NCBI RefSeq assembly: GCF_037078405.1
Contig: NZ_JAYMGZ010000002.1
Coordinates: 186,001 to 250,000, forward strand
DNA length: 64,000 bases
Direction of reading: 5' to 3'
DNA from: Haloarcula sp. DT43
Lineage (GTDB): Archaea > Halobacteriota > Halobacteria > Halobacteriales > Haloarculaceae
A program made the position numbers and the translations under genes. The notes beneath the pieces are model-generated. The model was not told the origin of the DNA. It saw nothing but the letters and a program-made list of their open reading frames with translations, and ran no database searches. Below are positions 53,578 through 57,109 of the stretch, in pieces; position 1 is the first letter of the stretch; each line of letters starts with the position of its first letter.

Positions 53578-54438
53578 ATGTTCGAGTTCGAGGTCCCGGA
53601 AGTCGATTACACCAAGTACTCGAACCGCCAACTGGTGGCGGTTCCGCTGGTGGTGCTCGGCCTGGCGCTCGCGGTGCTCGGTGGCTGGTACCTGGTCACC
53701 GGCGCGCCGGTCTCTCCGAGCATCGACTTCACCGGCGGTTCGGAACTCACCGTCGAGTCGTCCCTCTCACAGGCGGAACTCAGGGCCGCCTTCGACGAGC
53801 CAGTGGTCTCCGTCCAGCAGGTCGAGGGCGAGAGCCGCTACATCATCACGTTCGACTCGTCGAACCTGGAGCCAATCGAGGAGACCGCGCGGTCGAGCGA
53901 CCGGATGGAGTTCCTCGGTAGCGGGACGACGTCGCCGATATTCGGCCAGGAGAACCAGCGGCTGGCGGTCGTCGGCATCGGCGTCGCCTTCCTCGGGATG
54001 AGCCTGCTCGTCTTCGCGATGTTCCGCTCGATTGTGCCGAGCATCGCCGTCGTCCTCTCTGCGTTCTCCGACCTGGTCATCCCGCTCGCGGTGATGAACC
54101 TCCTGGGCATCGAACTCTCGCTGGGGACCGTGGCCGCCCTGTTGATGCTCATCGGTTACAGCGTCGACTCCGACATCCTGCTGAACAACCACGTCCTCCG
54201 GCGGTCCGGCGGCTTCTACGAGTCTACCTATCGCGCGATGCGGACCGGCGTGACGATGACGCTGACGTCGATGGCGGCGATGGCGGTGATGGCGGTGTCG
54301 GCGACGATATTCGGTATCGAACTGATGGCCGCCATCGGGTTCGTCCTCGTCGTGGGGCTTGCGGCCGACCTGATGAACACCTACATGCTCAACGTCACGC
54401 TGCTTCGCTGGTACAAGTACGAGGGGGTCAACCGATGA
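53578..54438 (+). CDS. secF: Protein-export membrane protein SecF
   Basis: This 286-residue SecF has six membrane helices, an external P1-like domain after TM1 (PSIDFTGGSELTV motif near residue 42), and the conserved segments VVLSAFSDLVIPLA and LLMLIGYSVDSDILLNNHVLR. It works with SecD to pull secreted proteins outward using the ion gradient. Its stop overlaps the secD ATG as ATGA. The secF-before-secD order is the archaeal one. Confidence 0.95.
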   Translation: MFEFEVPEVDYTKYSNRQLVAVPLVVLGLALAVLGGWYLVTGAPVSPSIDFTGGSELTVESSLSQAELRAAFDEPVVSVQQVEGESRYIITFDSSNLEPIEETARSSDRMEFLGSGTTSPIFGQENQRLAVVGIGVAFLGMSLLVFAMFRSIVPSIAVVLSAFSDLVIPLAVMNLLGIELSLGTVAALLMLIGYSVDSDILLNNHVLRRSGGFYESTYRAMRTGVTMTLTSMAAMAVMAVSATIFGIELMAAIGFVLVVGLAADLMNTYMLNVTLLRWYKYEGVNR

Positions 54439-55991
54439 GCACGCTCAAGGAGAACTGGCGCGTCGTCGCGCTTGTCACGCTGTTGCTCCTCAGCGCCGTC
54501 GCGCTGTTCATCCCCGGCGTGCCGCCGGGCACGTCCGGTTCCGAAGGGGCCGGGGCCGCGAACCAGTCGACGAACCTCCAGTACGGCATCCAACTCAGCG
54601 GCGGGACCCGCATCCAGGCCCCCATCGTCGGCACTACCGCCGAGGGCGTCGAGGTCGAACCTGCCGACGAGACCGCCCTCGCACAGTCGATGTCGGACCG
54701 GCTGGGCGTCGACCCAATCGACGTGCGCGTTTCGAACCGGACCGAAACCGTCGAGGTGTTCTCGAACAACGCGACCGCCGACGAGGTCGAGTCAGCGCTC
54801 GAAGCCGAGGGGTACGAACCCAGCGAGGTTCGCCCCGGCGTGACCCGGGAGACTCGGGAGAACATGGTGACGGTCATCGACGACAAACTGCGCGAGTCGG
54901 CGCTGACGGGGGGGTCCGTCCAGCAGGTCAGCTCCCCGGGCGGCCGGAGCTTCATCAGCGTCACGGCCCCCGACAGGGGTCGCGAGGAACTCATCGGCCT
55001 GCTCGAAGAACGCGGCGTCGTCCGGGTGTACGCCGTCCACGACAACACCGAGAACGGTACCTACGTCCGCGAGGAGGTCCTCTCGCAGGGCGATTTCGCC
55101 GGCATCGGCTCGGCACAGCGAAGCGACACGCAGGGGACACACGTCCCGGTGACGGTCAGACAGAGCGTCGCCGAGCGCTACGCGAACGACATGGTCGAGG
55201 CCGGCTTCGGGAGCGGGTCGACCTGCCGCCGCTCGGACTACGACCACGACAACCTCCAGAACTCGCAGGCGGACTGTCTGGTGACGACGCTGAACGGCGA
55301 GCCGGTGTTCGTCGGCGGCGTCGACCCGGGCTTGGGTGAGTCCTACCGGAACGGCGAGTTCGTCAACAACCCGCAGTTCATCATGCAGACCAGCAACATG
55401 TCCGAGGCGACCGAGCTGGAACTGGCGCTGAAGGCCGGTCGCCTCCCGGCCCCGCTCGACTTCGACAGCGCGGAGAGCCAGACGCTCTCCTCCGCGCTCG
55501 CCCAGGAGTTCCAGCAGCGCTCGCTCCTGACTGGCATCCTCGCGGTCATCGCGGTGAGCCTGGTCGTGTATCTCCGGTACGGTCGGCCCGAGGTCGCCCT
55601 GCCGATGATAGTCACGGCGCTGTCTGAGGTGTTCATCCTCCTCGGGTTCGTCGCCTTCGTCCAGTACCCGCTGAACCTCTCGCACCTGGCCGGGTTCATC
55701 GCGGTCATCGGGACGGGGGTGGACGACCTCATCATCATCGCCGACGAGATACTCCAGCAGGGGAAAGTCGAGACCGGGCGCGTGTTCCAGAGCCGCTTCC
55801 GCAAGGCGTTCTGGGTCATCGGCGCGGCCGCGGCGACGACTATCGTCGCCATGAGCCCGCTGATGGTGCTCTCGCTGGGCGACCTCTCCGGGTTCGCCAT
55901 CATCACCATCGTCGGCGTGCTGGTCGGCGTGCTGGTGACCCGGCCGGCCTACGGTGACATCCTCCGGAACCTCGTGCTGGACGAGGACTGA
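54435..55991 (+). CDS. secD: Protein-export membrane protein SecD
   Basis: This 518-residue SecD has TM1, a large external domain (about residues 40-340) and five more membrane helices. Family segments are YGIQLSGGTRIQAP (D1 region) and TGVDDLIIIADEIL near residue 435, the latter being the SecD TM4 motif. An insertion CRRSDYDHDNLQNSQADC contains two Cys and may form a disulfide outside the cell. A 7-bp stem-loop overlaps its stop codon. Confidence 0.95.
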   Translation: MSTLKENWRVVALVTLLLLSAVALFIPGVPPGTSGSEGAGAANQSTNLQYGIQLSGGTRIQAPIVGTTAEGVEVEPADETALAQSMSDRLGVDPIDVRVSNRTETVEVFSNNATADEVESALEAEGYEPSEVRPGVTRETRENMVTVIDDKLRESALTGGSVQQVSSPGGRSFISVTAPDRGREELIGLLEERGVVRVYAVHDNTENGTYVREEVLSQGDFAGIGSAQRSDTQGTHVPVTVRQSVAERYANDMVEAGFGSGSTCRRSDYDHDNLQNSQADCLVTTLNGEPVFVGGVDPGLGESYRNGEFVNNPQFIMQTSNMSEATELELALKAGRLPAPLDFDSAESQTLSSALAQEFQQRSLLTGILAVIAVSLVVYLRYGRPEVALPMIVTALSEVFILLGFVAFVQYPLNLSHLAGFIAVIGTGVDDLIIIADEILQQGKVETGRVFQSRFRKAFWVIGAAAATTIVAMSPLMVLSLGDLSGFAIITIVGVLVGVLVTRPAYGDILRNLVLDED

Positions 55992-56057: not shown

Positions 56058-56082
56058 ATATTATTTTAGATTGACTTATTAT
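56058..56082 (+). promoter_or_regulatory. AT-rich promoter-like tract before the RNA candidate
   Basis: ATATTATTTTA (56058-56068) and CTTATTAT (56075-56082) stand out in GC-rich DNA, at about -20 to -30 and closer to the start of the structured region. There is no open frame downstream on the plus strand that they could serve. Confidence 0.45.
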
Positions 56083-56450
56083 CCCGTCGGTCCAAGCTAC
56101 ACATCCCGCCGGATGCGGGGAGCAATCGGACGACGGGTCTCAGACTGTCCACACAGGACGGAACGGGACGCGTTGGGGGCAACAACCGAGCGGTCCGTCA
56201 CACGACTCCGAGGTGAACGCTCCGAAGGAGAACCGAACCAGCCCACCGCCGGCCCGGCCGGCCGGACCGGTGCGAAGGCCAACTACCGGACGCCACGTAA
56301 GTGACGTTCGGGAACCCAGCACGCCGACAAAACCCGGTGCGAGCCCGGGTAAAGCCCGAGAGGGCGAGGCCGGTGCAAGCCCGGCTACAGTCGGACACGC
56401 GCTGGCAGGGCCGTACGGGCTGTGGAAAACAGCTCCCGTCCGACTCCACA
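56083..56450 (+). ncRNA. Unassigned structured RNA candidate, about 370 nt
   Basis: The 482-bp gap between secD and rnhB holds no gene but a dense series of stems. A 10-bp stem with one bulge pairs 56083-56093 with 56128-56137. Then come GTTG-GGGG-CAAC (56172-56183), CTCC-GAA-GGAG (56220-56230), CCGGT/ACCGG (56267-56289), ACCCGG-TGCGAGC-CCGGGT (56332-56350), GCCC-GAGA-GGGC (56354-56365, a GNRA loop) and GCCGG-TGCAAGC-CCGGC (56369-56385). Two hairpins share the 7-nt loop TGC(G/A)AGC. It lacks the RNase P and SRP RNA core motifs I know. An AT-rich promoter lies just upstream. GC-rich DNA can mimic stems, so confidence is moderate. Confidence 0.5.
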
Positions 56451-56473
56451 CCGCCTCTGTCGGGGTCTCCCGT

Positions 56474-57109
56474 TCAGAAATCGCCCAGCGACGCCTGTTC
56501 CGCCGCGGCCAGCACGTCGTCACACGTCGACCACGACCGGCGGGCACACGCCGGCAGTTCGCCGTGGCGGTCGACGTACTCCGCGAGGAACGCTCGCGTC
56601 GTCGGGTCGCTGGGATAGCCCGACCCCACGTCGCCGTACGCATCGGCCAGCTCCGCGACGTGTGCGTCGCGGGCCACCTTGGCGACAATCGAGGCCGCGC
56701 CGACCAGCGGGTCCGTCTCGTCGGCCCCGTGTTCCGCCCGTACGGTCACGTCGGCTTCGACCGCGTCAGCGACCCGGCGACCGAACCGCGCCGCGTCGGT
56801 GTCGCCGGCGTCGACCGTCCCCGACAGTCCTTCGCGGGCCACCGACGAGAGCGCCGCCGCCTGTGCGTCGACGGTCAGCGTGTTCATGTCCGTCCCGTCG
56901 GCGTCGATGCGCTCGACCGGGACCTCGGCGACCCCGACGGCGTCGGCCGACTCGCGTATTTCGCCGGCCAGTCGCTCCCGGCGCTCCGGCCTGATAGCCT
57001 TCGAGTCGCCGACGCCGTCAGGCAGGGCTGCCGGGTCGGCCCTGACCGCGGCGGCGAACATCGACCCCAGGACCGGCCCTTTCCCGGCTTCGTCGACGCC
57101 GAATCGCAT
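56474..57109 (-). CDS. rnhB: Ribonuclease HII
   Basis: This 211-residue enzyme removes RNA from RNA-DNA hybrids. The start MRFGVDEAGKGPVLGSMFAA holds the catalytic D-E-A-G signature with the first Asp and Glu. Further acidic residues occur in NTLTVDAQAAAL and VGAASIVAKVARDAHV. Length and motif order are normal for archaea. It is convergent with the RNA candidate. Confidence 0.92.
   Translation of the reverse strand: MRFGVDEAGKGPVLGSMFAAAVRADPAALPDGVGDSKAIRPERRERLAGEIRESADAVGVAEVPVERIDADGTDMNTLTVDAQAAALSSVAREGLSGTVDAGDTDAARFGRRVADAVEADVTVRAEHGADETDPLVGAASIVAKVARDAHVAELADAYGDVGSGYPSDPTTRAFLAEYVDRHGELPACARRSWSTCDDVLAAAEQASLGDF

Follow-up and report, generated by a model that had tools for sequence, protein, structure and literature searches.

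In the 64,000-nt stretch of Haloarcula sp. DT43 DNA analysed here (the window; G000:C2:186001-250000), the interval between secD and rnhB raises the question of whether it contains a free-standing structured RNA, as a first-pass annotation had proposed for positions 56058-56450, and what such an RNA might do. An element is present at this site, but its bounds had to be shifted, as the covariance model (R1) places both start and end later, at 56103-56466. Its length is 364 nt here and about 250-530 nt in relatives.

Folding of the single sequence exceeds that of shuffles by a modest margin only (z -2.24), so that the case for a structured RNA rests on comparison. A blastn search within the family yielded 30 loci. 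An alignment of 23 sequences (A1) is the basis of a 16-helix multibranched fold, in which 97.3% of the cells pair and two-sided changes occur at 44 of the 89 pairs. The covariation score of A1 was 0.361, as compared to 0.177 in shuffles, none of 500 shuffles reached the alignment in any measure, and pairing fell from 97% to 30-48% when the partners were displaced by one to three columns. The more diverse set A3 showed two-sided changes at 52/89 pairs, with 94.1% paired; its alignment was fitted to the model and hence is biased towards the fold. The test for a structured non-coding RNA, i.e. covarying pairs beyond those of shuffles, is met, and a chance fold is ruled out by the A1 covariation and by A3. 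Absence of covariation in relatives, together with absence of a transcript, had been named in the first-pass annotation as what would refute the proposal, and the covariation was found. Covariation across the alignments demonstrates a conserved multibranched fold, laid out as a closing stem (H1-H3) with two arms, one a variable hairpin and the other an inner stem-loop, plus a multibranch domain which holds the conserved strands CCGAAGGAGAACCGAA, GAAGGCCAACTACCGGA and GTGGAAAACAGCTCCCG (Table 1). The pairing of TCGGACG (56126-56132) with CGTCCGA (56437-56443), described earlier as an alternative one, does exist but belongs to the main fold.

Table 1. Features of the RNA element and its surroundings; positions are window coordinates (contig coordinate minus 186000) unless a locus is given
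Feature	Position	Strand	Support or remark
secD, neighbour	54435-55991	+	ORF list; kept as neighbour across the genus; context only
TATA-like tract GACTTATTATCC	56073-56084	+	the 13 genomes of the genus have a similar AT-rich tract at this alignment position
RNA element, full covariance-model match	56103-56466	+	R1 match G000:C2:242103-242466, 350.4 bits
Closing helices H1-H3, 5' strand (GCGG, GGAG, TCGGACG)	56115-56132	+	partner strand 56437-56454; H1, H2 and H3 each with two-sided changes
H4 hairpin arm, variable in length and sequence	56133-56173	+	two-sided changes at 6/9 pairs
H5-H7 stem-loop arm, conserved GTNANA loop	56174-56225	+	alignment
Core strand CCGAAGGAGAACCGAA, including the H8 5' strand (partner CTCC, 56433-56436)	56222-56237	+	near-invariant across families
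H9, CCAGCCC (56238-56244) with GGGCTGT (56417-56423), closing the inner multibranch domain	56238-56423	+	two-sided changes at 4/7 pairs
H10 hairpin	56249-56270	+	two-sided changes at 7/9 pairs
Core strand GAAGGCCAACTACCGGA, used as search pattern	56274-56290	+	conserved
H12 hairpin, GTAA loop	56286-56311	+	two-sided changes at 6/10 pairs
Variable arm closed by H13 (CCAGC/GCTGG)	56316-56405	+	T-loop hairpins here, simple hairpin in many relatives
Putative T-loop hairpin 1 (H14), CCCGG-TGCGAGC-CCGGG	56333-56349	+	two-sided changes at 3/5 pairs
GNRA hairpin (H15), GCCC-GAGA-GGGC, between the T-loop hairpins	56354-56365	+	alignment
Putative T-loop hairpin 2 (H16), GCCGG-TGCAAGC-CCGGC	56369-56385	+	alignment
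Core strand GTGGAAAACAGCTCCCG, GAAAAC nearly invariant, predicted unpaired	56422-56438	+	conserved
Closing helices H1-H3, 3' strand (CGTCCGA, CTCC, CCGC)	56437-56454	+	covariation
rnhB, neighbour, convergent	56474-57109	-	ORF list; kept as neighbour across the genus; context only
Truncated Rnl3 gene	L105:1206-1433 (G000:C1)		beside HARP at 568461-569072

Within the genus of the window, the RNA is always located between secD and rnhB (L001-L013), whereas other sites are occupied in other genera. Its presence at this single site is all-or-nothing, the interval measuring about 480-570 nt where the RNA is present and 39-280 nt where it is missing. On the plus strand of the interval, A strongly exceeds T, the AT skew being about +0.5. 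The AT-rich tract pointed out upstream of the element is the TATA-like GACTTATTATCC, situated about 20-30 nt 5' of the RNA start given by the covariance model; we infer transcription from an own promoter, in the absence of transcript data and of a measured transcription start. The statement that no open frame is present was incorrect, as short open frames cross the interval (ORF list). A protein-coding reading was rejected, since these ORFs are only short and the conservation takes the form of paired helices and indel-rich loops and is not of the coding type.

Membership in a known family, be it RNase P RNA, SRP RNA, Twister-sister or another ribozyme, has next to no likelihood left and is already refuted for the families in Rfam 15. 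The Rfam/Infernal scan that had been recommended as a check gave no family at gathering score in the window; the sole matches in 20 homologous loci were tRNAs, and four diverse homologous loci gave no Rfam match to the RNA even at E 1. In agreement with the earlier assessment that the element is neither of the two, the models for archaeal RNase P RNA (RF00373) and archaeal SRP RNA did not match the window at gathering score, the latter not even at E <= 5 in the interval. The genome's own RNase P RNA is located elsewhere (G000:C2:65509-65959, 146 bits), and an RNase P RNA match occurs in 26/26 genomes checked (the window's genome and 25 relatives). The only point in favour of a known family is a weak match to Twister-sister (RF02681) at 56351-56425, with 21.8 bits as compared to a gathering score of 34 (E 0.03). 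It was rejected because it is below threshold and because the hairpin on which it rests, GCCGGTGCAAGCCCGGC of the variable arm closed by H13, is missing from many homologues.

The distribution of the RNA was surveyed in sampled genomes, 392 from the order, representing 95 genera, with strict filtering of large searches and without a species tree. R1 detected the RNA in 114 of the 392 genomes and in 45 of the 95 genera; R2, a second, more sensitive model derived from short diverse members, added G297 (115/392) and detected the RNA in three genomes outside the order (G453, G462, G471). Judged by these matches, the RNA class spans the haloarchaea and three more distant genomes of the phylum. The core DNA pattern (GAAGGCCAACTACCGGA) was present in 45 named records, 44 of them archaeal, including ten named species or strains of the laboratory genus Haloferax, as well as Halorussus, Haladaptatus, Natrialba, Halapricum and Halorarius. 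In Haloferax prahovense, the homologous locus is L196:5003-5322, on the minus strand. The bacterial record (L172, an Oligoflexia MAG) gave no model match and was taken as chance, and a search of plasmid DNA found nothing. Tandem copies were observed in L079:8001-8732, which contains two full or partial ones, and in Salinigranum salinum (L188:6854-7752), where two larger copies are accompanied by two core fragments. Three genomes, G143, G361 and G381, contain two copies at separate sites of one contig (L064/L065, L077/L078 and L075/L076, respectively). Near the RNA, both f26-family genomes from outside the order encode a protein that, judged by sequence alone, looks like a K+ channel (L235:6227-7207, L236:8710-9705).

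Comparison of the genes around 40 loci identified HARP (TIGR03875, "RNA ligase partner"), a PIN-domain protein-only RNase P, as the protein family most often found directly beside the RNA. In 15 loci from several families, the gap between the RNA and the aligned part of HARP is 31-151 nt. The two are divergent in Halorussus, Haladaptatus, Halogeometricum and others, convergent in Halorarius, G143 and G165, and not neighbours in most genomes, that of the window included. A cis-acting riboswitch or leader, which the first-pass annotation had discounted on account of the convergent rnhB, moreover does not fit the varied neighbours of the RNA in relatives and its occurrence in both orientations relative to HARP. 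Given covariation beyond shuffles, the lack of an Rfam match and the lack of a consistent downstream gene, the original proposal of a free-standing structured RNA is supported.

HARP was detected (E < 1e-20) in 163 of the 392 genomes of the order, comprising 107 of 115 genomes with the RNA (G297 counted) and 56 of 277 without it. Since genomes cannot be treated as independent observations, p values at the genome level exaggerate the association; the safer figures are the counts by genus, tallied by hand from the RNA and HARP tables (HARP in 42/45 RNA-positive vs 17/50 RNA-negative genera), and those within the window's genus (10/10 RNA-positive vs 7/16 RNA-negative genomes, p 0.004). All three RNA-positive genomes outside the order possess HARP (E < 1e-80). 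Eight genomes have the RNA without HARP; six of these are only 63-89% complete, while G144 and G178, both about 99% complete and with low model scores of 114 and 80 bits, respectively, look like real exceptions. No HARP was found in the draft genomes G124 and G103, whose RNAs are divergent. The converse notion that every HARP genome has the RNA was discarded, as R2 gave a clear match in only one (G297) of all 57 apparent exceptions; a partial match of 22.8 bits in G362 was left out of the counts. HARP thus occurs without credible RNA in 56 genomes, indicating that the RNA is not needed wherever HARP is. As far as co-occurrence and gene neighbourhood go, the RNA passes as a partner of HARP: genome counts and gene maps establish that the predicted RNA is nearly confined to HARP genomes and repeatedly linked, physically, to the HARP gene.

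HARP also co-occurs with the RNA ligase Rnl3, the genes being sometimes adjacent, according to a recent paper (Seshadri and Gopalan, mBio 2025, PMC12153264). In our survey, HARP was present in 117/117 genomes with Rnl3 (TIGR01209). The RNA was found in 45 of the 46 HARP genomes without Rnl3, and in 62 of the 117 with the ligase. The sole HARP genome lacking both, G439, is an 85% complete draft with a weak HARP match. No full Rnl3 is encoded in the window's genome, but an N-terminal ligase remnant of about 80 residues (50% identity) adjoins the intact HARP gene, an apparent case of ligase loss. The genome G453, which has RNA and HARP, contains only a fragmentary Rnl3 match (G453:C1:19702-19866, E 1.2e-4), possibly another degraded ligase. 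The pattern reads as if HARP is kept only with Rnl3, with the RNA, or with both.

Two hairpins sharing the loop TGC(G/A)AGC and flanking a GNRA hairpin had been noticed previously, and all three are present in the arm closed by H13. The T-loop of tRNA consists of seven bases, U-G/U-N-R-A-N-N, closed by G-C. UGCGAGC and UGCAAGC, each with G-C closure, satisfy this motif; by sequence only, without 3D evidence, the 7-nt loop common to both hairpins is a canonical T-loop of the tRNA kind. The 23 aligned RNAs contain 40 such hairpins with 5-bp stems, as compared to a mean of 0.085 in mononucleotide shuffles. Depending on the relative, the arm carries none to two or more of them, and as relatives swap T-loop hairpins for a simple hairpin, the T-loop arm is optional and lies outside the core. 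Most short RNAs, including those adjacent to HARP, lack it. In G143, the short copy adjoins HARP and the long copy carries T-loop hairpins. Divergent RNAs occur in the draft genomes G124, G103 and G112 (L241, L242 and L030, respectively), the one in L030 having extra T-loop-like hairpins. A link between the T-loop arm and Rnl3 was looked for and not seen. The identity of the T-loops, the nature of their arm as a variable insertion, and the connection to HARP go beyond the first-pass annotation.

From these observations we infer that the RNA works in the same pathway as HARP. That the RNA represents a new class of large free-standing structured RNA working together with HARP is, in the absence of transcript, binding or genetic data, an evenly balanced proposition. 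Mechanistically, we hypothesize that the RNA serves as a decoy or scaffold which, bound to the HARP oligomer, holds or redirects the nuclease. HARP oligomers grip mainly the shape of the tRNA T-psi-C loop (PMC9051087), which makes the T-loop hairpins suggestive; in RNAs that have them, they could dock at the site with which HARP ordinarily holds the tRNA T-loop. Since HARP-adjacent RNAs usually lack the T-loop arm, such docking could not be the general mode, and the shared core must carry the basic function. Rnl3 and the RNA would be two alternative safeguards or partners of HARP, and a genome that keeps HARP could lose one or the other but not both. The full proposal is that HARP, thought to act RNA-free, is accompanied in haloarchaea and some related archaea by a large RNA, a dedicated partner which controls or retargets it, which is interchangeable with Rnl3 in making HARP tolerable or useful, and which may present T-loops to the HARP oligomer where the arm is present; we advance it tentatively, considering it rather more apt to fail than to hold.

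The main rivals of binding and restraint are simple co-selection and a substrate role. RNA, HARP and Rnl3 might have no direct functional link but be favoured separately by salty habitats, or be co-inherited, with their adjacency incidental: nearly all carriers are haloarchaea, the genes are far apart in most genomes, part of the correlation is due to shared ancestry, and Seshadri and Gopalan connect HARP, with its patchy distribution, to extreme habitats (PMC12153264). However, the whole sampled order is haloarchaeal, and yet the RNA splits by HARP, even within one genus (10/10 vs 7/16). Linkage within 31-151 nt, in two orientations and in different families, likewise argues against a mere coincidence, and the complementarity with Rnl3 is not predicted by it, so we consider this explanation doubtful, albeit one still to be reckoned with. 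The RNA could also be a dedicated substrate of HARP, which would trim a 5' leader to release a mature RNA with a separate job, its ends perhaps being circularised where Rnl3 is present. HARP as a 5'-leader endonuclease and Rnl3 as an RNA-circularising enzyme, as described in the same paper (PMC12153264), would fit this role, as would the pairing of the RNA ends in H1-H3 and the space for a short leader left by the TATA-like tract; occurrence of the RNA without intact HARP would be explained as a relic. A ligase substrate, however, would be expected to show the opposite of what is observed, namely that the RNA is universal where Rnl3 is absent (45/46) and occurs in only about half of the Rnl3 genomes. 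Besides, one HARP genome in three is without the RNA and must use HARP for something else, and the substrate role appears unlikely.

A reading in which the RNA belongs to a selfish or mobile unit, or to an antiviral system, and HARP is a passenger might be suggested by its patchy presence, by clean presence or absence at the secD-rnhB site within the genus, and by the second copies in G143, G361 and G381 and those arranged in tandem in L079 and L188. Among the shared neighbours, however, no conserved transposase or integrase was seen, HARP is the gene most often closest to the RNA, and the core is strongly conserved over great distances; such an origin is very improbable.

As to the significance of a partnership of the RNA with HARP, Haloferax volcanii and Methanosarcina mazei strains from which HARP was knocked out show normal growth, and its function is described as unclear in recent reviews (PMC10941002, PMC12153264). 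A conserved RNA which tracks HARP, adjoins its gene in several lineages and occurs in nearly all sampled HARP genomes without Rnl3 provides a direct handle on the archaeal role of the protein. Besides, the RNA adds a large, well-supported class to the archaea, where few are known. Within open-licence papers, no description of it was found. Judged by Rfam and these papers, the RNA class and its link to HARP are new, while large orphan RNAs as a broad kind are already known; the novelty would be less if the HARP link proved incidental.

The bacterial OLE, ROOL and GOLLD RNAs are large, ornate, free-standing and patchily distributed orphan RNAs of unproven function. The element resembles them in all these respects, but it is archaeal, has no Rfam match and is tied to a specific nuclease. 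With archaeal RNase P RNA (RF00373) it shares size, haloarchaeal occurrence, the free-standing state and the RNase P theme; it differs in lacking a match to the model and in coexisting with the true RNase P RNA, encoded separately. The likeness to Twister-sister (RF02681) is limited to one hairpin sequence, with the loop GGTGCAAGCCC; the match is below threshold, the rest aligns poorly and the hairpin belongs to a dispensable arm. In type III toxin-antitoxin systems such as ToxIN, an RNA antitoxin, encoded as a repeat array upstream of the toxin gene in an operon, binds a nuclease. The element would act alike if it held HARP in check, although toxicity of HARP has not been shown; unlike these antitoxins, it is one large unique fold without a repeat array and is often not adjacent to the nuclease gene. 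An antitoxin upstream of, and co-transcribed with, its toxin gene was rejected as a candidate, as the arrangements with HARP are divergent, convergent or non-adjacent. The HARP-Rnl3 pair offers the same patchy distribution of HARP and a co-occurring second RNA-processing partner, sometimes encoded next to it; the partner there is a protein ligase, with no such RNA mentioned in the available portions of that paper (PMC12153264), whereas the partner proposed here is a large RNA.
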